64,000 bases of DNA, from the NCBI RefSeq assembly GCF_003703395.1, contig NZ_RDQN01000005.1, forward strand, positions 1 to 64,000. Reading direction: 5' to 3'. The DNA comes from Pseudoxanthomonas spadix. Its GTDB lineage: Bacteria > Pseudomonadota > Gammaproteobacteria > Xanthomonadales > Xanthomonadaceae. This document shows positions 1,383 through 51,785 of the stretch, piece after piece. Positions within the stretch are counted from its first letter, which is position 1, and every line of letters begins with the position of its first letter. A program made the translations under genes and the position numbers. Under the pieces are notes generated by a model. It saw nothing but the letters and a program-made list of their open reading frames with translations. It had not been told where the DNA came from and ran no database searches.

Positions 1383-4300
1383 ATGATCGTCCTCGAAGGC
1401 CAGCCGGCCTTGTCGCAGTTCCGCCGCGCGCGGCTTGAATCCCGTCTGAAGTCCCTCGCACCGATGGTGCGCATCGTGGACACCTGGCAGGTCTTCTTCA
1501 TCGATCCACGGGGCGATGCCGCCCCGGACCTGGACGCGCTGCGGCGCATCCTCCAGGCCGAAGGCGCGCCGTCGGCGCCGGCCGATGGCGCGGTTTCGCG
1601 CTTTGTGGTGCCGCGCCTGGGCACCCGTTCGCCCTGGTCGAGCAAGGCCACCGAACTGGTCCGCGGCGCCGGCCTGGCCATCGCCCGGGTCGAGCACGGC
1701 ACGCGCATCGACCTGGCCGGGCTGCCGGCCGATGCCGGTGCCCAGGCTGCGCTTGCCAAGCTGCTGTACGACCCGATGACCCAGTCGCTGCTGGACTCCA
1801 GCCAGGCGGCCCAGGCGCTGTTCAGCGCGCCGGCGCGCGGCCAGCTGCAGCGGGTGGCGCTGGCCGAGCTGGAAAGCGCCAACACCCGCCTGGGGCTGGC
1901 CCTGGCCCAGGACGAGATCGACTACCTGCGCAGCCGCTATGCCGAACTGGGCCGCGACCCGTCGGATGTGGAACTGATGATGTTCGCGCAGGCCAATTCC
2001 GAGCACTGCCGGCACAAGATCTTCAACGCCAGCTGGACCCTGGATGGCCGCGAGCAGGAGCGCTCGCTGTTCCAGATGATCAAGCACACCCACCAGCAGA
2101 CCCCGCAGCACACGCTGAGCGCTTATAGCGACAACGCCGCGGTGGTGGCAGGGCCGCTGGCCTGCCGCTATCGCCCGGACCCGGCCAGCGGCCAGTACCG
2201 CAGCGAGCCTGCGGTCGCGTCGGCCTTCGCCATCAAGGTGGAAACCCACAACCATCCGACCGCGATCGCGCCGTTCCCCGGCGCGGCCACCGGCGCCGGC
2301 GGCGAGATCCGCGACGAAGGCGCCACCGGCCGCGGCGGCAAGCCCAAGGCCGGCCTGACCGGCTTCTCCGTCTCGCACCTGCGCATCCCGACCCTGCCGC
2401 AGCCCTGGGAAGCCCCGCGCGTGCTGAACCCGCGCATGGCCCCGGCCCTGGACATCATGCTGGACGGCCCGCTGGGCAGCGCCGCGTTCAACAACGAGTT
2501 CGGCCGGCCCAACCTGCTGGGCTATTTCCGCAGCTTCGAGCTGGCCCAAGGCCACGCGCCCGATGGAAGCGTGCTGACCCGCGCCTACGACAAGCCGATC
2601 ATGCTGGCCGGTGGGCTGGGCGCGATCGACCGCAATCAGGTCCAGAAGAAGACCCTGCAGCCGGGCGATGCGGTGATCGTGCTCGGTGGCCCGGCGATGC
2701 TGATCGGGCTGGGCGGCGGCGCGGCCAGTTCGGTGGCCTCCGGCGACAGTGCCGAGGACCTGGATTTTGCCAGCGTCCAGCGCGCCAACCCGGAGATGGA
2801 GCGGCGCTGCCAGGAGGTCATCGACCGCTGCGTGGCGCTGGGCGCGGACAACCCGATCCGCTGGTTCCATGACGTCGGTGCCGGTGGCCTGTCCAACGCC
2901 ATTCCCGAACTGCTGCACGACTCGGGCGTGGGCGGGGTGATCGACCTGGACCGGGTGCCCAGCGACGACCCCTCGCTCTCGCCGCTGCAGTTGTGGTGCA
3001 ACGAATCGCAGGAGCGCTACGTGCTGGGCGTGCCGCAGGCGCGCCTGGCTGAATTTGCCGAGCTGTGCGCGCGCGAGCGCTGCCCGTTCGCCGCAGTCGG
3101 CGTGGTCACCGCCGAGGAGCGGCTGGTGGTGGGGTATGGCGTGCTGGGTGAGGCCGGGACTCGGGATCTGGGAGCCGGGACCCGGGACCTGGGAGCCGGG
3201 ACCCGGGAAAAGCAAGAGTCCGCCGATTCTGGGGGGTCGGTCGGTCCTTTGTCTGTCGTGGCCTCTGCTTTTCCGGGTCCCGGGTCCGGCGAGCTGCCCA
3301 TCGACCTGCCCATGGACGTGCTGTTCGGCAAGGCGCCCAGGATGCACCGGGACACCGCGCATCCGGCCGCGCCGCGCTGGCCCGAGCTGAAGACCGCCGC
3401 GCTGGACCTGCACCAGGCCGGCCTGCGCGTGCTGGCCCATCCGGCGGTGGCATCGAAAAGCTTCCTGGTCACCATCGGCGATCGCAGCGTCGGTGGCCTG
3501 ACCGCGCGCGAGCAGATGGTCGGCCCCTGGCAGCTGCCATTGGCTGACTGCGCGATCACCCTGGCCGGGTTCGAGACCTTCGCTGGCGAGGCGATGTCCA
3601 TCGGCGAACGCACGCCGCTGGCGCTGCTCGATGCCGCCGCCTCGGCGCGCATGGCCGTGGGCGAGGCGATCACCAACCTGTGCGCCGCGCCGGTGCCATC
3701 GCTGGACCGCGTCAAGCTTTCCGCCAACTGGATGGCCGCGGCCAACCACCCTGGCGAGGACGCGCTGCTGTTCGATGCGGTCCGCGCAGTGGCCATGGAC
3801 CTGTGCCCGCAGCTGGAGCTGAGCATCCCGGTGGGCAAGGACTCGCTGTCGATGCAGGCGGCGTGGGGCGAGGAGGCCGGGACTCGGGACGTTGAAGCCG
3901 GGACCCGGGACCCGGGACCCGGGACCCGGGAAGAGCAAGCGCAAGCGCAAGAGCCCGTCGGCTCCGGATCGTCGGTCGCTCCCGTGTCTGCCGTTGCCTC
4001 TGCTTCTCCGGGTCCCGGGTCCCGGGTCCCGAGTCCCGGCACCCGGCAAGCGCAAGAGTTCGCCAGTCCCGATTCGTCGGTCGCTCCCGTGTCTGCCGTT
4101 GCCTCTGCTTCTCCGGGTCCCGGGTCCCGGGTCCCGGGTCCCGGCACCCGGCAAGCGCAAGAGTTCGCCAGTCCCGAGGGCTCAGTCGGTCCTTTGTCTG
4201 CCGTTGCCTCTGCTTCTCCGGGTCCCGGGTCCCGGGTCCCGGGTCCCGGCTTCAACGTCCCGAGTCCCGGCTTCAACGTCCCGGGTCCCGGCTTCAAAAG

Positions 4301-5816
4301 CGTCTCCCCCGTTTCCCTGGTGATCACCGCGTTCGCCCCGGTCGATGACGCGCGCACCCAGCTGACCCCGCTGCTCTCGCGCGAGCCGGACACCGAGCTG
4401 TGGCTGATCGGCCTAGGGGGCGGCAAGCAGCGCCTGGGCGGTTCGGTCCTGGCCCAGGTCCATGCCGGCGGCGAAGCGCTGCCGGCCTTCGGCGGCGACG
4501 CGCCCGACCTGGACGATCCGCAGCTGCTGCGCAATTTCTTCGAACTCATGCGCGATGCGCGTGCCTTCGGCCTGCTGCTGGCCTACCACGACCGCAGCGA
4601 CGGCGGCGCCTTTGCCACGCTGTGCGAGATGGCCTTCGCCGCGCACCTGGGCCTGGACATCGCGCTCGATGCCTGGGGCGATGACGCCTTCCGCGCGCTG
4701 TTCAACGAGGAGCTCGGCGCGGTCGTGCAGATCGCCTCGGAAGACCGCGCCGCCTTCGCCGACCTGGTCGAGCGCCATGCCCTGACGCAATGCGCCCAGC
4801 GCATCGCCAGGACCAGCACCGCGCCGATGGTGCGCGTCACCCGGCAGGGCCACACCCTGGCCGAATGGCGCTGGGAACAGCTGTTCGATGCCTGGTGGTC
4901 GGTGACCCATGCCATGCAGCGCCTGCGCGACAACCCGGAAAGTGCCGACGACGAACGCCACACCGCGCGCACCTTCGCCGAGCCTGGCCTGCGGCCCAGG
5001 CTGACCTTCGACCCGGCCGAGGACGTGGCCGCGCCGTTCATCGCCACCGGCGCCCGGCCGAAGGTGGCGATCCTGCGCGAGCAGGGCGTCAACGGCCAGA
5101 TCGAGATGGCCCACGCGTTCGAACGGGCCGGCTTCGATGCCTTCGACGTGCACATGAGCGACCTGGTCCAAGGCCGCATCACCCTGGACCGGTTCACCGG
5201 CCTGGTCGCCTGCGGCGGCTTCAGCTACGGCGACGTGCTCGGCGCAGGTCGCGGCTGGGCCACCTCGATCCTGGAGCGCAGCGCGCTGCGCGCGCAGTTC
5301 GCCGCGTTCTTCGCCCGCACCGACACCTTCAGCCTGGGCGTGTGCAACGGCTGCCAGATGCTGAGCCAGCTCAAGGACATCATCCCCGGCGCCGAATCCT
5401 GGCCGCGCTTCCTGCGCAATCGCAGCGAGCAGTTCGAAGCGCGCACCAGCCTGCTGGAAGTGGTCCAATCGCCCTCGGTGTTCTTGCGCGGCATGGCCGG
5501 CTCGCGCATTCCGGTCGCCGTTGCCCATGGCGAAGGCCGCGCGCAATTCGATTCACCGGTGGACCAGGCCGCCGCCCGCGTCGCGCTGCGTTTCGTCGAT
5601 GGCGATGGCCAGCCGGCCTTGCGCTATCCGGCCAATCCAAACGGCTCGCCCGAGGGCATCACCGGCCTGACCAGCAGTGATGGCCGGGTCACCATCCTGA
5701 TGCCGCACCCAGAGCGCAGCGCGCGCACCATCAACCTGAGCTGGTCGCCGCAAGGCTGGCCCGAGGACTCGCCGTGGCTGCGCATGTTCCGCAACGCAAG
5801 GGTGTGGTGCGGCTGA
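1383..5816 (+). CDS. purL: Phosphoribosylformylglycinamidine synthase, with two repeat-encoded inserts
   Basis: Single-chain FGAM synthase: glutamine amidotransferase fused to the ATP-dependent synthase, fourth step of purine synthesis, cytosolic. The start at 1383 gives the family N-terminus ([14 protein letters not shown]). Visible motifs are [22 protein letters not shown] and, in the C-terminal glutaminase, nucleophile C1321 in GVCNGCQ with H1442/E1444 in MPHPERS. The protein has 1477 residues against about 1295 in E. coli. The excess is two in-frame inserts of Gly/Pro/Arg-rich heptapeptide repeats, residues about 591-636 and 832-970, encoded by heptamer-armed inverted elements. The sequence resumes the family pattern directly after each ([23 protein letters not shown]), so the enzyme is probably functional with disordered loops. 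Confidence 0.97.
3153..3290. repeat. Heptamer-armed inverted element A (in purL)
   Basis: 138 bp (46 codons) inside purL. The left arm starts GCCGGGAC and holds eight in-phase heptamers (GCCGGGA, CTCGGGA, TCTGGGA, GCCGGGA, CCCGGGA, CCTGGGA, GCCGGGA, CCCGGGA). A core beginning AAAAGCAAGAG follows, mirrored by CTCTGCTTTTC, then a short right arm of GGGTCCC units ending TCCGGC. It encodes GTRDLGA-type repeats and then PGPGSG. The length is a multiple of three, so the frame is kept. Confidence 0.9.
3876..4292. repeat. Heptamer-armed inverted element B (in purL), with a 105-bp triplication
   Basis: 417 bp (139 codons). The left arm has eight heptamers; the right arm mirrors it even in irregular units. 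Reading outward, both arms have TCCCGGG repeats, then TCCCGGC, TTCAACG, TCCCGAG, TCCCGGC. The core is repeated with an exact 105-bp period (GTCTGCCG at 3986, 4091, 4196), giving a 35-residue protein repeat ([14 protein letters not shown]...). The right arm carries an extra 21-bp triad. Element ends are GCCGGGAC and GTCCCGGC. Confidence 0.92.
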
Positions 5817-5975
5817 TTCGACCGGACAGATCCGCAAGCCGGCGATGAGGCGGCGCGGTTCATCGCCCCGGCCCCTGCGCCACCGGCATGGGTGCCGGCT
5901 GTCTGCGCCTGGAGCGTTCCGCGGCGCCGCAGTCCGGCTGCTAAAGTGCCGGCACATGCCGACTTGGGTTTCCAC

Positions 5976-7709
5976 GTGAACGCGGTGTCCTCATCGATCG
6001 ATCGTCCGGCGCCGGAGCGCGCCGACGAACGCGTGGTCGCGGCCCTGCTGGCCAAGGGCCGGCTCAAGGACGTGGATCTGGTGCGCGCCCGGCGGCTGCA
6101 GGAGGAAACCGGCGGCAGCGTGCTGGCCCTGCTGCTGCGCCTTGGGCTGGTGTCCGAACGCGACCATGCCGAGACCAGCGCCGAGGTGCTGGGGCTGACC
6201 CTGCTGGCGGCCAGGCAGTTGCCCGACGTTGCCCCGGAACTGCCCGAGGACGTGGCGCTGTCGTTGCGCTTCCTCAAGCAGTTCCATGTCTGCCCACTGG
6301 GCGATGCCGACGGTGCGCTGAACCTGTGGGTCGCCGATCCCTGCGATGGCTATGCGGTCGATGCGGTGCGCATGGCGATCGGCCGCCCGGTGCGGGCGAT
6401 GGTCGGGCTGCGCTCGGAAATCGACGACACCATCGAGCGCTGGCATGGACAGGGCCGCAGTGCGATGGGCGCGATCGTGGAGAACGCCGACGGTGACAGC
6501 AGCGGTGACCTGGACGATGTCGAACACCTGCGCGACCTGGCCTCCGAAGCACCGGTGATCCGGCTGGTCAACCTGGTGATCCAGCGCGCGGTGGAACTGC
6601 GCGCCTCGGACATCCACATCGAGCCGTTCGAAAGCCGCCTGAAGGTACGTTATCGGGTCGACGGCGTGCTGGAGGAAGGCGAAAGCCCGCCGGCCAACCT
6701 CACCGCCGCGGTGATCAGCCGCGTCAAGATCATGGCCCGGCTGAACATCGCCGAGCGGCGGCTGCCGCAGGACGGGCGCATCCAGCTGCGGGTGCAGGGC
6801 AAGGAGCTGGACCTGCGCGTGAGCACGGTGCCCACCGCCCATGGCGAGAGCGTGGTGATGCGCCTGCTGGACCGCGAGACGGTGGTGTTCGACTTCCAGC
6901 GGCTGGGCTTCACCGATGAGTTCCTGCCGCAGTTCCTGCACGTGCTGCAGCAGCCGCACGGCATCCTGCTGGTGACCGGGCCGACCGGCTCGGGCAAGAC
7001 CACCACGCTGTACACCGCGCTGAGCCAGCTCAACACGTCCGACGTCAAGATCATCACCGTCGAGGATCCGGTCGAATACCAGATCGAAGGGCTCAACCAG
7101 ATCCATGTGAAGCCGCAGATCGGCCTGGATTTTGCCAGCGCGCTGCGCAGCATCGTGCGCCAGGATCCGGACATCATCATGATCGGCGAAATGCGCGACC
7201 TGGAGACCGCGCGCATCGCCATCCAGTCCGCGCTCACCGGCCACCTGGTGCTGTCCACGCTGCATACCAACAACGCCGCCGGCGGCATCACCCGGCTGCT
7301 GGACATGGGCGTGGAGGACTACCTGCTGACCTCCACCATCAACGGCATCCTGGCCCAGCGCCTGGTGCGTCGGCTGGAGCCCACCCACGCCGAACGCTAT
7401 CCGGCCACGCCGGAGGAAATCGCCAGGTTCGAGCTGCGCCGGTTCCAGCCCGAAGGCCAGATCACGCTGTATCGCCCGCGCGCTTCGGCGCTGGCCCCGA
7501 CCGGCTACCTGGGCCGCACCACCATCACCGAGTTCCTGGTGATGGACGATCAGCTGCGCCGGGCGATCATGCGCCACGCCGGCATGGGCCAGATCGAGGC
7601 GCTGGCCCGCAAGGCCGGCATGCGCACCATGTACGAGGACGGCATCGCCAAGGCCCTGGCCGGCATGACCACCATCGAGGAAGTGCTGCGGGTGACGGAG
7701 GATGGGTGA
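5976..7709 (+). CDS. gspE: Type II secretion ATPase GspE (XpsE)
   Basis: Cytoplasmic hexameric ATPase that drives pseudopilus assembly. The predicted start is GTG 5976 (577 aa), since the family N-terminus begins close to there; the upstream Shine-Dalgarno is weak, and GTG 5985 is possible. The N-terminal regulatory domain (to about residue 150) precedes the RecA-like domain with Walker A GPTGSGKTT at 335-343, Asp box (ITVEDPVEY), Walker B (DPDIIMIGEMRD) and His box (LVLSTLHTNNA). The Cys4 zinc-binding loop usual in GspE is absent: the segment between RLVRRL and GYLGR has no cysteine. First gene of the secretion operon, separated from gspF by a 388-bp cassette. Function is certain from motifs and context. 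Confidence 0.95.
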   Translation: MNAVSSSIDRPAPERADERVVAALLAKGRLKDVDLVRARRLQEETGGSVLALLLRLGLVSERDHAETSAEVLGLTLLAARQLPDVAPELPEDVALSLRFLKQFHVCPLGDADGALNLWVADPCDGYAVDAVRMAIGRPVRAMVGLRSEIDDTIERWHGQGRSAMGAIVENADGDSSGDLDDVEHLRDLASEAPVIRLVNLVIQRAVELRASDIHIEPFESRLKVRYRVDGVLEEGESPPANLTAAVISRVKIMARLNIAERRLPQDGRIQLRVQGKELDLRVSTVPTAHGESVVMRLLDRETVVFDFQRLGFTDEFLPQFLHVLQQPHGILLVTGPTGSGKTTTLYTALSQLNTSDVKIITVEDPVEYQIEGLNQIHVKPQIGLDFASALRSIVRQDPDIIMIGEMRDLETARIAIQSALTGHLVLSTLHTNNAAGGITRLLDMGVEDYLLTSTINGILAQRLVRRLEPTHAERYPATPEEIARFELRRFQPEGQITLYRPRASALAPTGYLGRTTITEFLVMDDQLRRAIMRHAGMGQIEALARKAGMRTMYEDGIAKALAGMTTIEEVLRVTEDG

Positions 7710-7748
7710 GCGGGTCCTGATCATCCCGGCGCACGCGATGCCCGGAAT

Positions 7749-7784: not shown

Positions 7785-7795
7785 AAGGAAGAGCG

Positions 7796-8136: not shown

Positions 8137-8177
8137 GGTCGATTTTTTGCCAGACCCCGTCTGCCCAGGTCTCGCTG

Positions 8178-9883: not shown

Positions 9884-9890
9884 GCACGGC

Positions 9891-24825: not shown

Positions 24826-24958
24826 GCGAGGCGTGAGAAACGAGTAACACCCGCCCCTGGCTTTTTCCTCACTCCTCACTCCTCACTCTTCACTCCTCAC
24901 TTCTCACTTCTCACTTCTCATTACTTCTCGTTCCTCACTTCTCGTTTCTCATCCTCCG
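24826..24958. repeat. Heptamer-armed inverted element G (TCACTCC family)
   Basis: Between glyA and nrdR. The right arm (about 24867-24954) is a tandem array of some twelve imperfect 7-bp units: TCACTCC, TCACTCC, TCACTCT, TCACTCC, TCACTTC (x3), TCATTAC, TTCTCGT, TCCTCAC, TTCTCGT, TTCTCAT. A short left arm (GTGAGAA, ACGAGTA) is complementary to the outer units of the right arm, with a core of about 25 nt. The architecture and 7-bp period match elements A-F, but the heptamer sequence is different. The array is open in the frame of nrdR. Confidence 0.85.
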
Positions 24959-27135: not shown

Positions 27136-27165
27136 GTGCATCGCCGGTTCGCCGGCATCCATGAA

Positions 27166-27338
27166 CGTCTTCAGGGCGGGGTGCGATTCCCCACCGGCGG
27201 TAGGTGCGCCTGGCGCGCACGAGCCCGCGAGCGCTGCGAGGGGGGTGACGCCCACGCAGGTCAGCAGATCCGGTCCGATGCCGGAGCCGACGGTTGGTGC
27301 CGCATCCCGGCGCCAGAAAGTCCGGATGAAAGAAGACG
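27166..27338 (+). promoter_or_regulatory. FMN riboswitch (RFN element)
   Basis: All RFN landmarks are present: closing helix CGTCTTC (27166) / GAAGACG (27332), AGGGCGGGGTGCGATTCCCC, ACCGGCGGTA, GAGCCCGCGAGCG, GGTCAGCAGATCCGGT, GCCGGAGCCGACGGTT and AGTCCGGATGAAAGAAG. Binding FMN should reduce expression of the downstream ribE-ribBA-ribH-nusB-thiL genes. The expression platform is not simple: a GACCCGC / GCGGGTC hairpin follows at once, and a second hairpin lies at 27455. Confidence 0.95.
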
Positions 27339-27378
27339 ACCCGCCGCGCGGCCTTGATCGTCGTGCGCGGGTCCTTTG
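27338..27378 (+). terminator. Putative expression-platform hairpin of the FMN riboswitch
   Basis: GACCCGC (27338-27344) pairs with GCGGGTC (27367-27373), followed by a weak CTTTGCCTT tract. It shares its first base with the last base of the aptamer closing helix, so the two may compete. The T-run is poor, so control by anti-termination is plausible but unproven. Confidence 0.45.
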
Positions 27379-35241: not shown

Positions 35242-35606
35242 GTGGCGGAGCTGGCTGGACAGTCGCGTCATTCGCAAGAATGCCGAGGAAAGTCCGGGCT
35301 CCACAGGGCACGGTGCCAGGTAACGCCTGGGCGGCGCGAGCCGACGGCCAGTGCAACAGAAAGCAAACCGCCGATGGCCACACCTTTCGGGTGCGGATCA
35401 GGCAAGGGTGAAATGGTGCGGTAAGAGCGCACCGCGAGTCTGGCAACAGACCGGCACGGTAAACCCCACCGGGAGCAAGACCGAATAGGGACCTCATGAC
35501 GCTGCCCGCGTCGGGTCCGGGTAGGTTGCTTGAGCGTATCGGTGACGATGCGCCTAGAGGAATGACTGTCCACGACAGAACCCGGCTTACAGGCCGGCTC
35601 CGCCAC
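35242..35606 (+). ncRNA. rnpB: RNase P RNA (bacterial type A)
   Basis: Catalytic RNA of RNase P, which matures tRNA 5' ends. The hallmark CR-I block GAGGAAAGTCCGGGCTCC is at 35285-35302 and the 3' conserved block ACAGAACCCGGCTTACAG near 35575-35592. The 5' GTGGCGGAGC pairs with GCTCCGCCAC at the 3' end to close helix P1. About 365 nt. Followed by a strong terminator. Confidence 0.96.
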
Positions 35607-36753: not shown

Positions 36754-37200
36754 GTGTTCCAGGGCGAAACCGCCATCACCGTGGATGACAAGGGCAGGCT
36801 GGCGGTTCCCACCGTCTACCGCGACCTGGTCGCGCGTGCGTGTGGCAATCGCCTGGTGCTGACCTACAACCCGTTCGAGGCCGGTGCCCTGTGGCTGTAT
36901 CCGCAGGCCGCCTGGGAGCGGGTCCGTGACGAGGTCATGGCCATGCCCAACGTCAGGAAGACCGTGCGCACCCTGCAGCAGAAGCTGGTCGGTTCGGCTG
37001 CCTTCCTGGAGCCGGACGGCAACGGCCGGATCACCATCCCGCCCAGCCATCGGGCCGCGGTCGGGATCGAGAAGAAGGCCGTGCTGCTGGGCATGGGCGA
37101 GAAGTTCGAACTCTGGAGCGAGCAGGCGCACCGCGCGCAGATCCAGCAGACGTTGTCTGACGAGGATCTGGGCGAGGAACTGCTCGGACTCAGGCTGTGA
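36754..37200 (+). CDS. mraZ: Transcriptional regulator MraZ
   Basis: Ring-forming DNA-binding protein (two AbrB/MraZ swapped hairpins) that represses its own dcw promoter. 148 aa, start GTG 36754 after GAGGGGA; a longer frame reaches into the promoter and is rejected. Halves: [24 protein letters not shown] (first) and [33 protein letters not shown] (second). Followed by rsmH within 15 bp. Confidence 0.95.
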
Positions 37201-37214
37201 CGGTGGGGGCCCGG

Positions 37215-38342
37215 ATGCGCTCCGACGCGCAGCCCGGCCACCTTCCGGTGTTGTTTGCGCAGGTCATGGACGCGCTGCAGGTGAAGGCGGACGGCATCTA
37301 TCTGGACGGCACGTTCGGTCGCGGCGGCCATGCGCGCGGCGTGCTGGAACAACTCGGCCCGGGAGGCCGGCTGCTGCTGATGGACAAGGACCCCGAAGCG
37401 ATCGCCCATGCGCATGCCGTGTTCGATGGCGATGCGCGGGTGTCGGTGCAGCGCGGCAGCTTTGCCGAACTGGCGCAGTGGGACGCCACCGCCGGCGGCC
37501 TGGACGGGGTGCTGCTGGACCTGGGCGTGTCTTCGCCGCAGCTGGACGTGGCCGAGCGCGGATTCTCCTTCGGCAAGGACGGTCCGCTGGACATGCGCAT
37601 GGATCCGGAGTCGGGCCAGAGCGCCGCGCAGTGGCTGGCGCGCGCCGATGAGGGCGAGATCGCCGATGTGCTGTTCAATTACGGCCAGGAGCGCATGAGC
37701 CGGCGCATCGCCCGCACCATCGTCGCCCGCCGCGCCGAAACCCCGCTCACCCGCACCGCGCAGCTGGCCGAGTTGATCGCCAGCGTGATGCCGCGCGCCA
37801 GGCCCGGAACCGACAAGAGCCGGATCCACCCGGCCACGCGCAGCTTCCAGGCCATCCGCATCCACATCAACCGCGAGCTGGCCGACCTGGAAACGGGCCT
37901 GGACGCGGCGCTGGCGCGGCTCAAGGTCGGCGGACGCCTGGCGGTGATCAGCTTCCATTCGCTGGAAGACCGCATCGTCAAGCGCTTCATCGCCGGCCAT
38001 GCCAAGGCGCCGGCCGGCAACCGCCGCCTGCCGGTGGCGCAGGACTTCATCCCGGCCCTGAAGATCGTCGGCGAGGCGGTGCGCGCCGGGCCGGAAGAAA
38101 CCGCCGCCAACCCGCGCGCCCGCAGCGCGGTGCTGCGCGTGGCCGAGAAGCTGGGAGAGCCGGGGCCCGGGACCCGGGACCCGGGTCCCGGTCACGGCAA
38201 GAGCAAGACGGCTGTGGACCGGCCAGGAACCGGCTCCGGCTTTTCCCGGGTCCCGGGTCCCGGGTCCCGGGTCCCGGCTTTCCACCCCCGAGTCCCGGCT
38301 TTCCACCCCCGAGTCCCGGCTTTTGAGCGAGGCGCGGCATGA
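37215..38342 (+). CDS. rsmH: 16S rRNA N4-cytidine-1402 methyltransferase RsmH with repeat-encoded tail
   Basis: SAM-dependent methyltransferase modifying the base of C1402 (partner of RsmI). Start ATG 37215 preceded by a G-rich stretch; GTG 37197, overlapping the mraZ stop, is an alternative. Motifs: [86 protein letters not shown] and [16 protein letters not shown], where homologues end. The last 60 residues ([11 protein letters not shown]..., FHPRVPA twice) come from heptamer element C. The stop still overlaps the ftsL ATG (ATGA). Enzymatic core complete. Confidence 0.95.
38159..38320. repeat. Heptamer-armed inverted element C (3' end of rsmH)
   Basis: 162 bp starting GCCGGGGCCCGGGACC and ending GTCCCGGC. 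The left arm is four CCCGGGA-type heptamers; the right arm is four GGGTCCC units, then two 21-bp triads (TTTCCAC, CCCCGAG, TCCCGGC). The core, about 60 bp, starts CACGGCAAGAGCAAG. It extends RsmH by a disordered tail and stops before the ftsL start. Confidence 0.9.
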
Positions 38343-40494: not shown

Positions 40495-42002
40495 GCCGCG
40501 CCATGGCCCTGTCCGCGCTGCTGCCCGACGTGCCCGCCATCCCGGCAGGGGTGGTCGTGCACGGCCTGACCCAGGACAGCCGCAGCGTGCGCGCCGGTGA
40601 TGCCTTCGTGGCGATCGGCCCGGTCGACAACAGCGCCTCCAGCTGGCACGGACTGGGCTTTGTCGAGCAGGCGCGTGCGCGCGGCGCAGTGGCGATCCTG
40701 TTCGAACCGCCGGCCCCGGAGTCGCTGCCCGCACCAGCCGATGCGATCGCCGTGCCCGGCCTGCGGGCGCGCCTGGGGGCGCTGGCCGACACCTTCTACG
40801 GCCACCCCTCGCAGCAGATGACGATGGTCGGTGTCACCGGCACCAACGGCAAGACCTCCACCGTGCAGCTGCTGAGCCAGGCCTGGCACCTGCGCGGCAC
40901 CGTGAGCGCCAGCATCGGCACGTTGGGCGCGGGCCTGTACGGCCAGCTGCGGCCGACCGGCTTCACCACACCGCTGGTGCTCGAGCTGCATGCGCTGCTG
41001 GCCCAGCTGCACGATGCCGGCGCACAGGCGATCGCGATGGAAGTCAGCTCGCACGCGCTGGCCCAGACCCGCGTGGACGGCGTGCATTTCGACGTGGCGG
41101 TGTTCACCAACCTCAGCCGCGATCACCTGGACTACCACGGCGACATGCAGCGCTACGGCGCGGCCAAGGCGCGGCTGTTCCAGCGCCCGGGGCTGAAGGC
41201 GGCGGTGATCAACCTGGACGATGGCTTCGGCGCGACCCTGGCGGGCACGCTGGCCGGGGACGTGCAGCTGGTCGGGGTCAGCGCCCATGGCGCGACCGCT
41301 GCCCGCGTGCAGGCGCGCGAGGTGGTGCTGGACAACGCCGGGATCGGTTTCGACCTGGTGATCGGCGCCACCACCCATCCGGTGCGCTCGCCACTGCTGG
41401 GCCGTTTCAACGTCGACAACCTGCTGGCGGTGGCCGGCGTGCTGCTGGCCACCGGCGATGCGCCGGCGCAGATCGCGCGCACGCTTACGCAGCTGCAGCC
41501 GATCCACGGCCGCATGAACCGCCTCGGCGGCGTCGATGGCCAGCCGCTGGTGGTGATCGACTACGCGCATACACCCGACGCGCTGGCGCAGGCCCTGACC
41601 AGCCTGCGCGCGCACGTGGCCGGCCGGCTGATCTGCGTGTTCGGCTGCGGTGGCCAGCGCGATGCCGGCAAGCGTCCGCAGATGGCCAGGATCGCGCAGG
41701 ACCATGCCGATGTGGTGATCGTCACCGACGACAATCCGCGCCACGAAGACGGCGAGGCGATCGTGGCCGACATCCTCGCCGGCTTCTCCGACGATGCGGT
41801 CTACGCCGTGCAGCGCGATCGCGCCGCGGCCATCGCCCGCGCCATCGGCCAAGCCAGGGCCGGCGACATCGTCCTGATCGCCGGCAAGGGCCACGAGCCC
41901 TATCAGGACATCGGCGGGGTCAAGCAGGCCTTCGATGACACCGTGCAGGCCCGCATCGCCCTGCAGGCGCGCGCGCCGGACCCTGCGCAGGTGCGGCGAT
42001 GA
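40491..42002 (+). CDS. murE: UDP-MurNAc-tripeptide ligase MurE (meso-DAP type)
   Basis: Adds meso-diaminopimelate to UDP-MurNAc-dipeptide. 503 aa from ATG 40491 (ATGA overlap). Motifs: [20 protein letters not shown] loop [31 protein letters not shown], and DNPR at 414-417, the signature of DAP (not lysine) specificity. A gammaproteobacterial Gram-negative wall is thus expected. Its product feeds MurF, the next gene. Confidence 0.96.
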
Positions 42003-43486
42003 ACCGGCTTGCGCTCTCGCTCATCGCCCACCTGGCCGGCGGCCACCTGCACGGCGAGGACACCACAGTGGACGCAGTGTCCAACGACACCCGCGCGCTG
42101 CGCAGCGGCAGTCTGTACGTGGCCCTGCGTGGCGAGCGCTTTGATGGGCACGACTTTGTCGCCGCGGCCGCACAGGCTGGCGCGGCGGCGCTGCTGGTCG
42201 AGCACGCGGTCCAATCCGAGCTGCCGCAGGTGATCGTGGCCGACGCCCAGCTGGCCCTGGCCCGGCTTGCCGCCGGCCTGCAGCGCGACCGCAGCGGCAA
42301 GGTCGTGGCGATCACCGGCAGCAACGGCAAGACCAGCGTCAAGATGCTGGTGAGCGCCATCCTGCAGCGCGCCGGCCAGACCTATTCCAGTCCCGGCAAT
42401 CGCAACAACGAGATCGGCCTGCCGCTGGCGGTGATCGAGGCGCCGGACCAGGCCGAGTTCGCCGTCTACGAAATGGGCGCCGGCAAGCCGGGCGACATCG
42501 CCTACCTGACCCGGATCGCGCGCCCGGACGTGGCCCTGGTCAACAACGTCGCCGCCGCGCACCTGGAACGCCTGGGCAGCCTGCTGGGCGTGGCCCAAAC
42601 CAAGGGCGCGATCTACAGCGCGCTGCCGGCCGATGGGGTGGCGGTGATCAACGCCGACGACGCCTTCGGCGAATACTTCGCCGCCCTGGTCCCGGGCCGG
42701 CGGGTGCTGCGCTTCGGCCTGGAATCCAGCGCCGAGGTCAGCGCCCGCGCGGTCATGACCGATGCCCAGGGCTCGCGCTTCACCCTGGTCAGCCCGGACG
42801 GTGAAGCCCCGGTCGCGCTGGCCCTGCCGGGCCGCCACAACGTGCGCAACGCGCTGGCCGCGGCGGCCATCGCGCTGGGCTGCGGGGTGCCGCTGGCGGT
42901 GATCGCCGAAGGCCTGGCCGCGGCCCGACCGGTCGCCGGCCGGCTCCTGGCCCATCGGCTGGACCGTGGCGCGATGCTGATCGATGACAGCTACAACGCC
43001 AATCCCGCCTCGCTCGATGCCGCCATCGCCACCCTGGCTGCCGCGACCAGACAGGGCTGGCTGGTGCTGGGCGACATGCGCGAACTGGGCCCGGAAGCCG
43101 CCACGCTGCACGCTGCCGCCGGCGCCCGTGCCCGGCAGGCCGGCATCGCCCGGCTGTATGCGCTGGGGCCGCTCAGTGCCCATGCCGCCCACGCCTTCGG
43201 CGAAGGGGCGCGCGTGTTCGACAGTCATGCCGCGCTGGCCCAGGCCCTGCAGCACGATCTGCAACAGATCGCAGACCCGGACCCGGGACCCGGAACCCGC
43301 GAGAAGCAGGCGCAAACGCTGTCCGTCGCGCCTGCGCAAGCTGCTGTTCCGGGTCCCGGGTCCCGGGTCCCGGGTCCCGTGCTTCTGATCAAGGGCTCCC
43401 GTGGCAGTGCCATGGACCGCATCGTGTCGGCGCTGCTTCCGGCCGCACCCACGCACTCTTCGGGAGGCACCGCGCATGCTGCTTGA
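41999..43486 (+). CDS. murF: UDP-MurNAc-tripeptide-D-Ala-D-Ala ligase MurF with repeat-encoded insert
   Basis: Adds D-Ala-D-Ala to complete the UDP-MurNAc-pentapeptide. 495 aa from ATG 41999. Motifs: [22 protein letters not shown] loop [60 protein letters not shown] and VLGDMREL. Residues about 426-461 ([11 protein letters not shown]...[11 protein letters not shown]) are a heptamer-element insert between LQQIA and the conserved final motif [15 protein letters not shown]. So the insertion is internal and in frame in the C-terminal Rossmann-like domain. Overlaps mraY by 11 bp. Confidence 0.95.
43274..43380. repeat. Heptamer-armed inverted element D (in murF)
   Basis: About 107 bp inside the murF reading frame. 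Left arm GACCCGGACCCGGGACCCGG (short); right arm four GGGTCCC units ending at 43380. The core starts GAGAAGCAGGCG and is partly mirrored by AAGCTGCTGTTCC. Both arms are shorter than in A-C. Outer ends are less perfect than GCCGGGAC/GTCCCGGC. Frame is preserved with murF resuming at LLIKGSRG. Confidence 0.85.
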
Positions 43487-44561: not shown

Positions 44562-45859
44562 TGAACGACCATCGCAGGCAGGCCACGCGCCTGGAATCCA
44601 TCGTCGGCCAGTACGATTTCTGGCTGGCCAGCGCTGTTGCCGCGCTGATCTCGGTGGGCGTGGTGATGGTGGCCTCCAGTTCCATCGCCATGGCCAGTAC
44701 GCCGTTCTACTACCTGACCCGCCACGTCCTGTTCGTGGGCCTGGGCCTGGGGCTGGCCTGGGCGGCCATGCGCATGGAGCTGAAGACCATCGAGAAGTAC
44801 AACCGGCTGCTGCTGATCGGCTGCGTGCTGCTGCTGTTGCTGGTGTTCGTCCCGGGGCTGGGGGTGAAGGTCAACGGCGCGCGGCGCTGGATCAACCTGC
44901 TGGTCACCCGCTTCCAGACGGTCGAAGCGGTCAAGGTGCTCTACATCGTCTGGCTGGCCAGCTACCTGGTGCGCTTTCGCGATGAGGTCAACGCCACCTG
45001 GCCGGCGATGCTCAAGCCGCTGGGCGTGGCGGTGCTGCTGATCGCGCTGCTGCTGGCGCAGCCGGACTTCGGTTCGTCCACCCTGCTGCTGGGCATCACC
45101 GCCGGCATGCTGGTGCTGGGCGGGGTCAACCTGCCGCGCATGTCGATGCCGGTGCTGGTTGCGCTGCCGGGGCTGGTGGCGCTGGTGGTGTTCGAACCCT
45201 ACCGCATGCGCCGGGTGACCTCGTTCCTGGATCCGTGGGCCGACCAGCTGGGCTCGGGCTACCAGCTGTCCAACGCGCTGATGGCCATCGGCCGCGGCCA
45301 GTGGACCGGGGTCGGGCTGGGCAGTTCGGTGCAGAAGCTCAACTACCTGCCCGAGGCGCACACCGACTTCATCTTCTCGGTGATCGGCGAGGAGCTTGGC
45401 TTTGCCGGGGTGTGCGCGGTGATCGGCCTGTACGCGCTGCTGGTCGGTCGCGCCTGCTACATCGGCTATCGCTGCGTGGAGATGCGCCGCCACTTCGCCG
45501 GCTACATCGCCTTCGGCATCGCCCTGTGGATCGGCATGCAGGCCTTCGTCTCGGTCGGCGTGAACCTGGGCATGCTGCCGACCAAGGGCCTGACCCTGCC
45601 GCTGATCTCCTCCGGCGGTTCCTCGGTGCTGATGACCTGCGCGGCGATGGGCCTGCTGCTGCGCGTGTCGTATGAGTTGAGCCGGGCCGAGAGGCAGGTC
45701 GCCCTGCTGCGTGGGGAAGCGGCGCCGCCGCCGGCCGATGGCAGCAAGCCTTCGCCTTCGCCCGCCCCTGCGGCCCCTGTCGCAGCGGCGGCCGCGACCA
45801 CCCGCGGCAGCAGTCGCCTGACCTCGCGCATCGAGCCCACCTTCGAGAGGATCGGATGA
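44561..45859 (+). CDS. ftsW: Septal peptidoglycan polymerase FtsW (SEDS)
   Basis: SEDS-family lipid II polymerase working with FtsI. 432 aa; the ATG at 44561 overlaps the mraY stop (TGATG). Ten predicted membrane segments; signature parts [21 protein letters not shown] (catalytic Asp region), [60 protein letters not shown] and [12 protein letters not shown]. The cytoplasmic C-terminal tail of about 50 residues is Pro/Ala/Ser rich. Overlaps murG by 4 bp. Confidence 0.96.
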
Positions 45860-46977
45860 GTGTTCACGCCACTGCCTCGCAAAGGCCCGCACCTGTCGGT
45901 GCGCAGATGCAAGAGGAGCATCCGGTGATGATCCTGGCCGGCGGCACCGGTGGCCACATCTTCCCCGCGCTGGCCGTGGCCAAGGTGCTGCGCGCGCGCA
46001 ACGTGCCGGTGGTGTGGCTGGGCGCGGACGGGCAGATGGAAACGCGGCTGGTGCCGCAGCACGACATCGCCCTGGACACCATCGCGGTCAGGGGCCTGCG
46101 CGGCAAGGGCACCCTGGCCCTGCTGGGCGCGCCACTGCGCGTGCTGGGCGCGGTCAAGGCCGCCGCTGCGGTGCTGCGCCGGCGCGATCCGCGCGCGGTG
46201 ATCAGCTTCGGTGGCTACGCCGCCGGCCCCGGTGGCCTGGCCGCACGCCTGCAAGGCCGTCCGCTGCTGGTGCACGAACAGAACCGCGCGCCGGGGATGA
46301 CCAACAAGGTCCTGTCCAGGTTCGCCCGGCGGGTGTTGACCGGCTTCCCGGGCAGCTTCGCCGCGCGCGAGGAAGTGGTCGGCAACCCGGTGCGAGCGGA
46401 GATCGCGGCCATCGCCGCGCCCGACCAGCGCCTGGCCGATCGCAACGGCCCGCTGCGCCTGCTGGTGCTGGGCGGCAGCCAGGGCGCGCGCGTCTTGAAC
46501 AGCGCCGTGCCGCAGGCCCTGGCCGCGTTGAAGCTGCCGGCGCAGGTGCGCCACCAGTGCGGCGAAAAACTGCGCGCCGAGGCCGATGCGGCCTACGCCC
46601 AGGCCGGCGTCCAGGCCAGCGTGGAAAGCTTCATCGCCGACATGGCCGGCGCCTATGCATGGGCCGATCTGGTGGTGTGCCGGGCCGGTGCCTCGACCCT
46701 GGCCGAGCTGTGCGCGGCCGGGGTCGGCAGCGTGCTGGTGCCCTTCGCCGCCGCGGTCGACGACCACCAGACCCGCAACGCCCGCTACCTGGTCGAACAT
46801 GGCGCCGCGGTCCTGCTCAAGCAGGACGACAGCTTGGGCGTGCAGCTGCAGCGGGTGCTGGCGGTGTTGTCGGCCGATGCACCGCGCCGCCTGGACATGG
46901 CCACCGCCGCGCGCCGCCTGGCGCGTCCCGATGCCGCAGAGCGCATCGCAGACATCATTCTGGAGGAGGCCGCATGA
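45856..46977 (+). CDS. murG: UDP-GlcNAc:lipid I GlcNAc transferase MurG
   Basis: Peripheral membrane GT28 enzyme producing lipid II. 373 aa from ATG 45856 with AGAGGA upstream; the first 23 residues ([17 protein letters not shown]...) precede the conserved core [18 protein letters not shown]. Other motifs: [60 protein letters not shown] and [20 protein letters not shown] 45907 would give a shorter form but lacks a Shine-Dalgarno. ATGA overlap with murC. Confidence 0.96.
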
Positions 46978-48425
46978 TTGCCGCGGCGCGTGAACGCCGG
47001 CTGCAGAACACCGGCGACCTGGCCCAGGTCTTCCGCCGCGTGCACTTTGTCGGCATCGGCGGCTCGGGCATGAGCGGGATCGCCGAAGTGCTGTGCACGC
47101 TGGGCTATGAGGTGTCTGGTTCCGATGCCGCGGAAAATGCCGCGACCAGGCGGCTGGCCTCGCTGGGCGCGCGGGTGATGCGCGGCCACAATGCCGCCAA
47201 CGTGCTGGGCACCGATTGCGTGGTGGTCTCCAGCGCGATCAGGGCCGACAACCCCGAGCTGATGGAGGCGCGCAGCCAGCGCATCCCGATCGTGCCACGG
47301 GCGATGATGCTGGCCGAGCTGATGCGCTTTCGCCGCGGCATCGCCGTGGCCGGCACCCACGGCAAGACCACCACCACCAGCCTGACCGCGGCGGTGCTGA
47401 GCGAAGGTGGCCTGGATCCGACCTACGTGATCGGCGGCCAGCTGCTCTCGGCCGGCGCCAATGCCAAGCTCGGCGATGGCCAGTGGCTGGTGGCCGAGGC
47501 CGACGAGAGCGACGGCAGCTTCCTGCGCCTGAGCCCGCTGATCGCGGTCATCACCAATATCGACGCCGATCACCTGGAGAACTACGGCAACGACTTTGCC
47601 CGGGTCCAGGCCGCCTTCGCCGAATTCCTGCAGCGCCTGCCGTTCTACGGCCTGGCGGTGCTGTGCATCGACGATCCGGAAGTGGCCGCGCTGGCCGCCG
47701 AAACCCCGCGCCACGTGATGACCTACGGCCTGTCCGACAACGCCGACATCCGCGCCGAAAACGTGGTCCAGCAAGCGGGCCGGATGCGCTTCACCCTGCG
47801 CCTGCCCGAGGATGTGTCGGTCAACGTCACCCTGGCCCTGCCGGGCAGGCACAACGTGCTCAACGCGCTGGCCGCGGCCGCGGTCGGCTGGCAGCTGGGC
47901 GTGCAGCCGGGCACGATCGCCCGCGCGCTGGCCAACTTCTCCGGCATCGGCCGCCGCTTCAACGACCTGGGTGCGATCGACACCGGCCGCGGCGCCACGG
48001 TGCAGCTGATCGACGACTACGGCCACCACCCCAACGAGCTGGCCGCGGTGTTCGCCGCCGCCCGCGGCGGCTGGCCGGACAAGCGCCTGGTGGTGGCCTT
48101 CCAGCCGCATCGCTACAGCCGCACCCGCGACCAGTTCGACGCCTTCGCCGCGGTCCTGAGCGAAGTCGATGCGCTGGTGCTGAGCGAGGTCTATCCGGCC
48201 GGCGAAGCACCCATCGCCGGCGCCGATGCCAAGTCGCTGGCGCGCGCGATCCGGGCGCGCGGCCGCAACGAACCGGTCGTGGTCAGCCAGGTCGGCGAGC
48301 TGCCGGCGGTGCTGCCCGACCTGCTGCAGGACGGCGACCTGCTGCTGATGATGGGTGCCGGCGACATTGGCCATGTGGCCCAGCAGATCGCCGCGCACGG
48401 CTTTTCGAAGGGCACCGACGCATGA
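46974..48425 (+). CDS. murC: UDP-MurNAc-L-alanine ligase MurC
   Basis: First amino-acid-adding ligase of the peptidoglycan precursor pathway. 483 aa from ATG 46974. Motifs: [22 protein letters not shown] loop [75 protein letters not shown] and [17 protein letters not shown]. Full-length typical enzyme; coupled to ddlB. Confidence 0.96.
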
Positions 48426-49378
48426 GCGCGCCGTCCTTCCCGCCGCCGCGCAACACCGATCCGGCCGCGTTCGGTCGGGTTGCCGTGTTGATGGGCGGGA
48501 CCTCCAGCGAGCGCGAGGTGTCCCTGAACTCGGGGCGCAACGTGCTCGAGGCCTTGCAGGCGCGGGGCGTGCAGGCCCATGCGGTCGATGGCCTGCCGGC
48601 CCTGCTGGAACAGATCCGGGCCGGTGCCATCGATCGGGTGTTCAACATCCTGCACGGCGGCGACGGTGAAAATGGCGTGCTGCAGGGCCTGCTGACGGCG
48701 CTGAAGGTGCCCTTCACCGGGCCGGGCGTGCTGGGCTGCGCCCTGACCCTGGACAAGATCCGCACCAAGCAGGTGTGGATCGCCTCGGGCCTGCCGACTC
48801 CGGCCTTCCGCCGCATCCGGCGCGGGGACGACCTGCGCGCGGCGGCGGCCGAGCTGGGTCTGCCGGTGTTCGTCAAGCCCTCGACCGAAGGCTCCAGCGT
48901 GGGCGTGTTCCGGGTCCTGGCCGAGCAGGACCTGCAGCCGGCCATCGACTTTGCCGCCGGTTATGACGGCGAGCTGCTGATCGAGCAGATGGTGCAGGGC
49001 GAGGAATACACCGTCGGCATCCTGGACGGGGTCGCGCTGCCCTCGATCAGGATCGTGCCGGCCGGGGCCTGGTACGACTACCACGCCAAGTACATCGCCG
49101 AGGACACCCAGTATCTGTGCCCGGGCCTGTCCGGCCAGGAGGAAATCCAGATCCGCCGGTTGTCACTGGCTGCCTTCGAAAGTGCCGCCTGCAGCGGCTG
49201 GGGCCGGGTGGATGTGATGCGCGATGTGTCACGCGGCCTGCAGTTGATCGAAGTGAACACCGCGCCGGGCATGACCAGCCATTCGCTGGTGCCCAAGGCG
49301 GCGCGCCAGGCCGGTATCGGTTTCGAGGAACTGTGCTGGCGCATCCTGGAATCGACCCTTCAGGCGCGCCCGGCATGA
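48422..49378 (+). CDS. ddlB: D-alanine-D-alanine ligase
   Basis: ATP-grasp ligase making the D-Ala-D-Ala dipeptide used by MurF. 318 aa from ATG 48422 (ATGA). Motifs: [70 protein letters not shown] (ATP), WGRVDVMRD and [24 protein letters not shown] (metal ligands). Position murC-ddlB-ftsQ is the classic dcw order. Confidence 0.96.
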
Positions 49379-50268
49379 GCAACGTGCTGCGCGTGCTGAC
49401 CTGGATCCTGGCCCTGGCGCTGGTCGCGCTGCCGGTGGTGGCCGTGTTCAACGGCTGGATCGGCGCCGAGCGCTGGCCGCTGACCCGCCTGCGTGTCAGT
49501 GGCGCGCTGCATCGGGTGGATCCGGCGCAACTGCGCGCGGTGGTGATGCCGTACGCACAGCGCGGGTTCTTTGCCGTGCAGCTGGGCCAGGCCCAGGATG
49601 CGGTCGAACGCCTGCCGTGGGTCGAACGCGCGCAGGTGCGCAAGCGCTGGCCCGACACGCTGGAAGTGATCGTGGTCGAGCACAAGCCGTTTGCGCGCTG
49701 GGGCAGCGATCGCCTGCTGTCGGTCGAAGGCGCGTTGTTCCCGGTGCCGCGCAACGTCGATGCCAGCGCGCTGCCGCAGCTGGGCGGCCCCGACGCGCAG
49801 GTGGGCGAAGTGGTGGCGCTGTACAACGAGGCCAGCGCGCTGTTCGCGCCGATGGGCCTGAAGGTCGATGCGCTGGTGATGGATGCGCGCGGCAGCTGGT
49901 CGCTGAAGCTGGGCAGCGGCCTGGACGTGGTGATCGGCCGGGCCGATGCGCGCCCGCGCCTGCAGCGCTTCGCGCGTCTGCTGCCGCGTCTGCTGGGCGA
50001 CCCGCGCACGCTGCAACGGGCGGACCTGCGCTACACCAACGGCTTCTCCCTGACCTGGGCCGAGCAAAGCCGGGACCCGGGACTCAAAAGCGGGGACTCG
50101 GGACCCGGGACTCCGGACTCGGTAAGCGCGCGCGCAACAGCGACACCGGCGACGGCGAGAGAAGCGGCATCGGTATGGAACGCGCGGGCACCGCTCTTGC
50201 GAGTCCCGCGTCCTGCGTCCCGCGTCCCGGCTTTCTCCTCATCCGCCATTTCCAGCAGGACGACATGA
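49375..50268 (+). CDS. ftsQ: Cell division protein FtsQ with repeat-encoded tail
   Basis: Bitopic divisome hub that binds FtsB/FtsL in the periplasm. 297 aa from ATG 49375. Transmembrane helix about 8-27 ([20 protein letters not shown]), POTRA domain ([35 protein letters not shown]), then the beta domain ending with [16 protein letters not shown] at residue 232, where family members end or nearly end. The remaining 65 residues ([17 protein letters not shown]...[11 protein letters not shown]...) come from heptamer element E. The stop overlaps the ftsA ATG. The beta domain end is where FtsB binds, so the tail is noteworthy. Confidence 0.93.
50069..50231. repeat. Heptamer-armed inverted element E (3' end of ftsQ)
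   Basis: 163 bp starting GCCGGGAC and ending GTCCCGGC. The left arm keeps strict 7-bp phase over about eight units (GGGACCC, GGGACTC, AAAAGCG, GGGACTC, GGGACCC, GGGACTC, CGGACTC). The right arm is CGAGTCC, CGCGTCC, TGCGTCC, CGCGTCC, CGG. The core is different from A-D (GGTAAGCGCG...). The odd unit AAAAGCG sits in phase with the others. Confidence 0.88.
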
Positions 50269-51500
50269 ACCGCAAAGGCGACAAATCCCTGATCGTCGGA
50301 CTGGACATCGGCACCTCCAAGGTGACGGCGCTGGTCGGTGAATATTCGCCCGGCAACCCGATCGAGGTGATCGGCATCGGCAGCCATGAATCGCGCGGGC
50401 TCAAGCGCGGGGTGGTGGTGGATATCGAATCGACCGTGCAGTCGATCCAGCGCGCGGTGGAGGAAGCCGAGCTGATGGCCGGCTGCGAGATCCGCTCGGT
50501 CTATGCCTCGATCTCCGGCGCCCACGTGCAGTGCAGGAACTCGCCGGGCATCGTCCCGATCCGCGACGGCGAGGTGACCTGGTCGGACCTGGATCGGGTG
50601 CTGGATGCGGCCAGGGCCGTGGCCATCCCCGCCGACCAGAAGATCCTGCACGCGATCCCGCGCGAATACGTGCTGGACAATTCCCAGGAAGGCATCCGCA
50701 ATCCGGTCGGCATGACCGGCGTGCGCCTGGAAGTCCATGCACACCTGGTGGTCTGCGCGCAGTCGGCCGCGGCCAACATCTCCAAGTGCGTGCAGCGCTG
50801 CGGCCTGCAGATCGACGACCTGATCCTGTCCTCGCTGGCCTCCTCGGTGGCGGTGCTGACTGCCGACGAACGCGAGCTGGGCGTGGTCCTGGTCGACATG
50901 GGCGCCGGCACCACCGACCTGGCCGTGTTCGTGCAGGGCGCGATCTGCCACACCGCGTCGCTGCCGATCGCCGGCGACCACGTCACCAACGACATCGCCC
51001 ACATGCTGCGCACGCCCACCCCGGAAGCCGAGCAGATCAAGGTTCGCTACGCCTGCGCGCTGGCCCAGTTGGCCACCGCCGAGGAAAGCATCCAGGTGCC
51101 ATCGGTCGGCGACCGCCCGCCACGGCGGATGCCGCGCCATGCGCTGGCCCAGGCGGTGCAGGGACGCTACGAGGAGATCTTCGAGATGGTCCAGGCCGAG
51201 CTGCGCCGCTCGGGTTTCGAAGAGCTGGTCCGCGCCGGCATGGTCCTGACCGGCGGTGCCTCGAAGATGGAAGGGGTGGTCGAGCTGGCCGAGGAAATGC
51301 TGCAGATGCCGGTGCGCATCGGCATCCCGCAGCACGTCACCGGGCTGGGCGAAGTGGTCGGCAACCCGGTCCACGCCACCGGCGTGGGCCTGCTGCTGAT
51401 GGGCAGCCAGATCGAACATCCGCGCCGCCCGTCGCTGCCCACCGGCAAGGCCGGCAGCTTGTTCAAGAAACTGCAGAACTGGTATCGCGGCGAGTTTTGA
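50265..51500 (+). CDS. ftsA: Cell division protein FtsA
   Basis: Actin-like ATPase that tethers FtsZ to the membrane. 411 aa from ATG 50265, preceded by AGCAGGA inside the sequence after element E, with ATGA overlap to ftsQ. Motifs: [18 protein letters not shown] (phosphate 1), [38 protein letters not shown] (phosphate 2), [21 protein letters not shown] (adenosine), and a C-terminal amphipathic helix [15 protein letters not shown] that anchors to the membrane. Confidence 0.97.
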
Positions 51501-51505
51501 ATCAG

Positions 51506-51785
51506 GCCGGGACTTGGGGCTCGGGACCCGGGACCCGGGACCCGGGACTCGGAAAAGCGGAGAGCGGAGAGCGGAACGGAGGGCGGAAAGAACGAGCAAA
51601 AATCGCCGGCGCGAAGGCCGGGCAGGGTACGGGAAAGCAGCTTTCCCGAGTCCCCAGTCCCGAAACCCGAGTCCCGGCTCCAGGCAACAAGCGACATCCA
51701 CCAGAAAAATCGCCGGCGCGAAGGCCGGGCAGGGTACGGGAAAGCGGCTTTCCCCAGTCCCCAGTCCCGAGTCCCGAGTCCCGGC
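51506..51785. repeat. Heptamer-armed inverted element F (ftsA-ftsZ gap), with internal duplication
   Basis: Fills almost the whole 304-bp gap. Starts GCCGGGAC, ends GTCCCGGC. The left arm runs 14 heptamers in one phase while drifting in sequence: GCCGGGA, CTTGGGG, CTCGGGA, CCCGGGA (x3), CTCGGAA, AAGCGGA, GAGCGGA (x2), ACGGAGG and so on. A core starting AATCGCCGGCGCGAAGG occurs at 51601 and 51708 (period 107 bp). Right arms of CGAGTCC-type units follow each core. No separate ftsZ promoter is evident inside. Confidence 0.9.

Follow-up and report, generated by a model that had tools for sequence, protein, structure and literature searches.

Palindromic elements in Rickettsia place palindromic DNA within protein genes, at tolerant positions. 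Tandem heptamers set out as convergent pairs are a feature of Xanthomonas chromosomes, and it is with these that the elements described here are allied. Rehm et al. (2015; PMC4692102) describe repeats of GGGAATC, or (GGGANTN)n, with 70 convergent pairs in Xcc and 75 in Xac; four units are preferred, and the repeats lie chromosome-wide near the ends of open reading frames, 89–93% of them intergenic and 7–11% intragenic. The same paper places 83% of the Xcc repeats in the same context in Xac, reports that oligonucleotides of the repeat form G-quadruplexes (G4) in vitro, and identifies no regulatory role. The present elements were noticed in a 64,000-nucleotide stretch of Pseudoxanthomonas spadix (contig NZ_RDQN01000005.1, positions 1 to 64,000; hereafter the window), where six of them stand in or beside purL, rsmH, murF, ftsQ and the ftsA-ftsZ interval. 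The source genome, G000, is a draft assembly of 3.37 Mb in 26 contigs. The family is larger than was first noted, and adds several features to the published repeat.

Like the Xanthomonas repeats, the G000 arrays have a period of 7, a unit of the form GGGA-N3 and many convergent pairs, and dnaE and ruvA, both named as repeat-associated in what is available of PMC4692102, have an element in or beside them in G000 (L165, L196). In contrast to those repeats, the main G000 unit, GGGACCC (156 of 259), does not fit GGGANTN, which is matched by at least 78 of the 259, as counted among the twelve commonest units; GGGAATC is absent from those twelve; and 9 of 43 clusters are in or at the end of genes, against the 7–11% given for Xanthomonas. 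The initial annotation had proposed an independent class. The family and its in-frame copies are real, but heptamer arrays and convergent pairs had already been published, and the same division and cell-wall (dcw) positions are filled in Xanthomonas, so that independence does not stand.

REPINs (PMC3116915, available in part) likewise have inverted terminal motifs and a spacer that form a hairpin, and are non-autonomous and dispersed; the present elements differ from them in bearing the GTAG tag at 2 of 68 ends, when 4.5 were expected (GTAG/CTAC scored), and in that arrays occur independently of Y1_Tnp genes across the genus. With miniature inverted-repeat transposable elements (MITEs) they share terminal inverted repeats, but copies are not alike along their whole length. 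As with the coding palindromes of Nematomorpha mitochondria (PMC6649704, available in part), inverted repeats lie in genes with arms apparently kept matched; those, however, are perfect repeats, mitochondrial, and not a heptamer family across a bacterial chromosome. The G000 elements resemble Rickettsia palindromic elements in lying in frame in coding genes, and differ in their tandem-heptamer arms, mostly unshared cores, mostly extragenic positions and gammaproteobacterial host.

The reading that we favour, at a probability of about 0.55, is that of a REPIN-like family of dispersed hairpins, copied between loci by a putative activity. Each element would be non-autonomous; its plan runs from a 5' GCC through about four GGGA+3 heptamers and a purine-rich edge (of AAGAGC/AAAGC type) into a variable core, followed by a pyrimidine-rich mirror edge, about four complementary heptamers and a 3' GGC. 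The three free bases of the heptamer would change quickly, but tend to do so together within a genome, so that each genome came to have its own main unit or units. Insertion would recur both between and within genes, and those insertions that survived in genes would be of length 3n and lie in loops, linkers or C-termini, the nearly always stop-free GGGA units helping them to stay open; selection alone might explain the frame.

Dispersal is directly observed. The pattern CCGGGACCCGGGA occurs 118 times in G000 and GGGACTCGGGA 68 times, the reversed-pattern control giving 0 for each. In a wider panel of 395 family genomes CCGGGACCCGGGA was found in 97, often once, with 57 to 108 occurrences in a few; single matches are close to background, for in some genomes the reversed pattern, too, is found once or twice. 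A census of 34 stretches and the window, located by three exact patterns, yielded at least 43 heptamer clusters in G000, far beyond the window, which bears out the suggestion of a dispersed family with a common plan. That plan is GCC, GGGACYC units, an AAAGC/AAGAGC-type edge, core, mirror edge, GGGTCCC-type units and GGC. At several loci the core and right arm have been amplified in tandem (with periods of, for example, 72, 90 or 105 bp), while other clusters are solo arms. In three cases (L182 596-620, L185 639-663 and L186 629-653) a solo right arm of four heptamers runs straight into a ribosome-site-like GGAGA before a start codon.

The units are coherent within a genome, again by direct observation. 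GGGACCC and GGGACTC (60 of 259) together make up 216 of the 259 G000 units. For 73 elements from the 20 loci, of 80 named dcw loci, with arrays at defined shared sites, unit similarity within a genome was 0.523, against a permuted mean of 0.281 and maximum of 0.397 (2000 within-site permutations, kinship being ignored), while same-site elements of different genomes gave 0.318, with no excess; the array-level comparison leaves out 9 of 123 arrays, which did not fall at the named sites. The unit sequence would appear from this to be set more by the genome than by the site. There are exceptions: in some Xanthomonas, GGGACC units are confined to one or two sites, the rest having GGGAAT or GGGATT, and G347 has two unit types.

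Both filled and empty sites are found among relatives. Four-unit arrays occur in 26 of a panel of 38 genus genomes, G000 included, and are absent from 12; by the broad pattern the former have 1 to 407 matches, which overlap, so that one long array scores many times. There are 82 matches in G000, 180 in G376 (where the control gives 9) and 179 in G368, but zero in G364, G388 and G372. At all 18 G000 sites outside the window that were aligned in a relative (17 in G364, 1 in G388) the relative has not even a two-unit array, and these empty orthologous sites contradict the view that the elements are ordinary diverged coding DNA present in all relatives. G364 (89%) and G388 (88%) have the highest purL identity to G000. 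The nearest named relative by MurG, Pseudoxanthomonas sp. GM95 (91% identity among the best 80 of 394 MurG relatives, a comparison from which records very close to the window's own were possibly excluded), lacks arrays at four dcw sites, where there is one chance-like GTGA/GGGA pair (L031:15574). Alignment to empty sites defines element ends more clearly in coding genes than between genes. On a tree of the purL flanks, read by topology alone, the group of G372, G364 and G388 adjoins G000, G376 and G368. In the congener G016 a GGGAATC array extends over at least 683 bp (C1:326875-327557).

Old vertical inheritance, in which gene conversion kept the arms of ancestral elements uniform and some lineages shed every copy, would fit the positions filled in common in different genera (the rsmH end, ftsA-ftsZ and murG-murC), the contexts shared by Xcc and Xac, and the presence of arrays, with both purL sites filled, in G376 and G368, the closest genomes to G000 on the purL tree. 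Yet purL loops without an insertion differ little from one part of the tree to another, so that repeated near-exact excision would be required. In addition, only 4 of 55 pairs of purL site-2 cores exceed the best shuffled pair, and two near-identical ones among these (G330/G117, 0.89; G206/G353, 0.88) cross the tree, suggesting that purL alleles have been exchanged between species. We regard vertical inheritance as improbable.

Recurrence at a single codon is seen directly in purL and dnaE. Six of the 38 genomes have a heptamer element at purL site 1 and six have other inserts there, five of them of the CCTTCTCCC/GGGAGAGGG type (that in G302 is of CCTTCTCCC type); site 2 has heptamer elements in 11 of 38. 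The minimum numbers of changes on the purL-flank tree are 3, 4 and 7, for site-1 heptamer elements, site-1 other inserts and site-2 heptamer elements, respectively. Unfilled site 1 measures 30 nt in 23 of 26 genomes (33, 33 and 36 nt in the others) and unfilled site 2 measures 23 nt in 27 of 27, and all 23 insertions (12 at site 1, 11 at site 2) change the native length by a whole number of codons. Because different repeat families use the same codons, these alignments suggest a place that is tolerant rather than specifically targeted. One dnaE codon is filled, always in frame, in G000, G218, G359 and G380 among the 22 of 38 genomes read; G218 and G359 have nearly the same 108-nt stretch there, and G380 a left arm alone. 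Elsewhere in the window, at 151-295, there are tandem 52-bp units with CTTCTCCC...GGGAGAAGG palindromes, and a look-alike of this palindrome family, recognised other than by alignment, sits in frame at purL site 1 in several congeners.

The six window elements and the genes that house them are as follows.

1248..5816, plus strand: purL open frame, start likely at about 1383, with two elements inside and Pfam FGAR-AT domains
3142..3297, plus strand: purL site-1 element; left arm of GGGAC units at 3153-3208, core at about 3207-3273, short right arm to about 3290
3871..4301, plus strand: purL site-2 element; left arm 3876-3931, core 3932-4008, then right arm
37197..38342, plus strand: rsmH open frame, Pfam Methyltransf_5
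38154..38325, plus strand: rsmH 3'-end element, an in-frame C-terminal extension directly before ftsL
41999..43486, plus strand: murF open frame, Pfam Mur ligase domains
43267..43384, plus strand: murF element, in frame, directly upstream of a C-terminal KGSR segment that we take to be conserved in MurF
49117..50268, plus strand: ftsQ open frame, Pfam POTRA_1 and FtsQ_DivIB_C
50063..50263, plus strand: ftsQ 3'-end element, an in-frame C-terminal extension
51506..51785, plus strand: ftsA-ftsZ intergenic element, with core and right arm present twice

All six elements of the initial annotation (starting at 3153, 3876, 38159, 43274, 50069 and 51506) are present, with convergent heptamer arms flanking a core: GGGAC-type tandem units lie on the plus strand in left arms and on the minus strand in right arms. 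By eye, four do end cleanly in GCCGGG(A/G)C / GTCCCGGC as it had stated (those at 3876, 38159, 50069 and 51506); the 3153 element has only a near match at its right end, and the 43274 element lacks these ends. The elements in purL (two), rsmH, murF and ftsQ were correctly described as in frame, each open frame being uninterrupted and coding for the expected Pfam domains. The site-1 element adds 126 nt to purL where most relatives have the 30-nt loop. That at site 2 adds 408 nt to the native 23 nt and is composite, with one left arm, three tandem 105-bp copies of core and right arm (3941-4250) and a tail of 21-bp units to 4297. The rsmH-end position is filled also in Xanthomonas and other relatives.

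Across G000, nine of the 43 clusters lie within or at the end of a gene, frames being assigned by base composition, open frames and Pfam: two in purL, one each in dnaE, at the ispD-ispF junction, in a Helicase_C_2-domain gene and in murF, and three as C-terminal extensions of rsmH, ftsQ and mreC; placement is ambiguous for further clusters beside nadD-like and ruvA genes. On 1t3t the purL insertions map to the residue intervals 594-604 and 798-803. In G000, 627 nt separate two anchors in dnaE, against 30 nt in 18 of the 21 congeners read; on either side of a gap between residues 577 and 580 of 2hnh the product can be aligned with E. coli DnaE. The ispD and ispF genes form a single open frame in G000 (L167 17-1375) with both Pfam domains and an element-coded joint, whereas in G364 a stop codon and a new ATG keep them separate; as an alternative to a fusion protein, an internal start may be used at the G000 junction. 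Seven not being divisible by three, a long array runs through every reading phase. Of the possible GGGANNN units, 56 of 64 are stop-free on both strands, and GTGA units never are. To see in stop-free units a special adaptation is not persuasive, as a random heptamer of 70% GC is stop-free with a probability of 0.78.

Several observations weigh against copying between loci. The cores of G000 are mostly unrelated: among the 24 of 31 long enough to compare after trimming, 3 of 276 pairs (L183a/L194, purL 1/purL 2 and L180/W5) exceed the best shuffled pair and one ties, and BLAST with the cores gives short matches at core edges. Since a recent burst from a single element should leave similar cores, either only the arms and edges would be copied or the cores would decay fast. 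The left-side inner edge AAGAGC, which speaks for copying, occurs in 16 of 72 named pairs against 1.2 expected, and in 7 of 31 own pairs against 0.5, but the edge k-mers were picked after the elements had been read, the named pairs come from related species and are not independent, and some k-mers, such as CAAGAG in the named loci, are not enriched. No clear donor for the G000 cores appeared elsewhere in the chromosome among the 40 of 132 candidates scored; what the cores recover is in the main the locus they come from and the tandem copies there, with weak matches besides. No target-site duplication, looked for as a mark of insertion, is clear by eye in the alignments of empty and filled sites, the intergenic ones being ambiguous. 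The insertions at dnaE and purL site 1 take the place of the native loop instead of simply interrupting it; and because G376 and G368 have arrays, loss of arrays in G364, G388 and G372 is possible. Finally, Y1_Tnp and RVT_1 profiles run over the genus panel found no partner gene.

Capture of the cores from elsewhere in the chromosome was also considered and set aside, the strongest off-locus matches among the 40 of 132 candidates scored being weak and two of them falling at another array locus (C12:274.5 kb). The core halves differ in purine fraction, at 0.605 on the left and 0.403 on the right in the 31 own elements and 0.627 and 0.444 in the 72 named; after trimming by 12 nt per side the skew loses significance in G000 (p 0.24) and persists in the named loci.

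The mostly site-specific cores fit a local origin without mobility, in which native GC-rich inverted repeats seeded slippage and template switching and strand-switching kept the arms matched. Such an origin would agree also with the tandem amplification of core and right arm at several loci, with the small GC-rich inverted repeats that can be seen by eye in the native purL site-1 and dnaE loops of some relatives, and with the somewhat greater likeness of arms within an element (0.635, 45 pairs) than between different elements of the same genome (0.549, 286 pairs). Local events alone cannot, however, give one unit at dozens of unlinked loci and other units in relatives, nor explain the common inner edges or the sharp presence and absence of arrays within the genus, and we judge this explanation unlikely, though not negligible.

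The potential to form hairpins is plain: RNA folding of seven short elements chosen gave hairpins in every case, at -58 to -122 kcal/mol with z of -5 to -12 relative to shuffles. The elements might instead be regulatory RNA or DNA structures, either G4 or intergenic hairpins, kept by selection, with the copies in genes as by-products. In 27 of 42 tabulated clusters (frames by base composition) the stop of the upstream gene is at most 40 bp away; the solo four-unit arms at L182, L185 and L186 lie directly upstream of GGAGA; the published oligonucleotides form G4; and at three sites in seven Xanthomonas loci the GGGA positions vary less (0.014-0.060) than the flanks (0.078-0.094), although the GGGA figure is biased downwards, one locus of the seven having served to define the arms by GGGA. 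In the same loci the three free unit positions vary by 0.083-0.250 and the core by 0.173-0.249. Against this, 12 of the 38 genomes have no four-unit array, the 2015 authors identified no regulatory role in the part of their paper available, and GTGANNS arrays, which have no GGG tract, make up 45 of 81 matches in G206, 26 of 31 in G353 and 13 of 17 in G253, some of them convergent. G117, G330 and a few others also have GTGANNS (9 of 16 genomes with a match), and the two matches in G347 are a GTGAGGG unit. Because arrays without a GGG tract keep the period of 7 and, in some cases, convergent pairing, these sequences argue against G4 formation as the conserved feature of the whole family, while leaving it open where GGG is present, as in the G000 arms. 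A regulatory origin seems to us improbable.

If elements are copied between loci, an enzyme would presumably be needed. The initial annotation had suggested a search for a co-occurring transposase or reverse transcriptase. Y1_Tnp matches occur in 35 of the 38 genomes, seven of them in G000; G376, with its 180 array matches, has none, and Y1/RAYT as a necessary partner is therefore rejected, a role in some genomes, G000 among them, being possible. Reverse transcriptase is likewise rejected as a necessary partner: RVT_1 is matched in 13 of 38 genomes but in none of the array-bearing G000, G016, G376, G158 and G091. An autonomous copy, with a gene between the arms, was not seen in the stretches read, no systematic search having been made. 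Rfam at gathering thresholds gave no match on the elements. One element used as query found no match among phage records and partial matches in nine plasmid records, seven from Streptomyces, none covering 80%. Viral contigs include 50 stretches with arrays, seven with a convergent pair, and no clear vehicle; several arrays occur in L245, L247 (UViG_3300025000_000174) and L279.

It is tempting to imagine, as a long shot, a dedicated activity that writes the genome-specific heptamer on both arms at many loci, somewhat as in templated repeat addition, leaving the cores non-uniform and, as a side effect, furnishing essential proteins with new loops and linkers and with gene fusions. However they arose, insertions of repeat elements of up to about 200 residues are carried by the replicative polymerase, a purine enzyme and cell-division proteins, at codons where relatives have other elements or none, and they are thus natural experiments on loop tolerance. 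Dispersed DNA may also make linkers and fusions, as for IspD-IspF. The likeness of short arrays at unlinked loci within one genome becomes a testable puzzle.

A search of open-licence PMC, which leaves subscription papers mostly uncovered, found no account of in-frame insertion of heptamer repeats beyond the available part of PMC4692102. Several features were not found in the literature searched: in-frame insertion at the same purL and dnaE codons in several species; units set more by the genome than by the site; uniform arms around mostly unrelated cores; inner edges; the GTGA variant lacking G-tracts; empty sites in congeners; and array counts that are high in a genome devoid of Y1/RAYT matches and in genomes devoid of reverse-transcriptase matches.

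The window holds a further heptamer array at 24866-24951, of about eight TCCTCAC units (GTGAGGA on the opposite strand), together with an FMN riboswitch at 27163-27341 and a bacterial RNase P RNA at 35247-35605 (Rfam). Among the MurG records, L076 (JAHREJ010000004.1), titled Bacillus subtilis SK7B5, codes for a MurG 76% identical to the query and resembling Stenotrophomonas records, and this assembly is probably mislabelled or contaminated.

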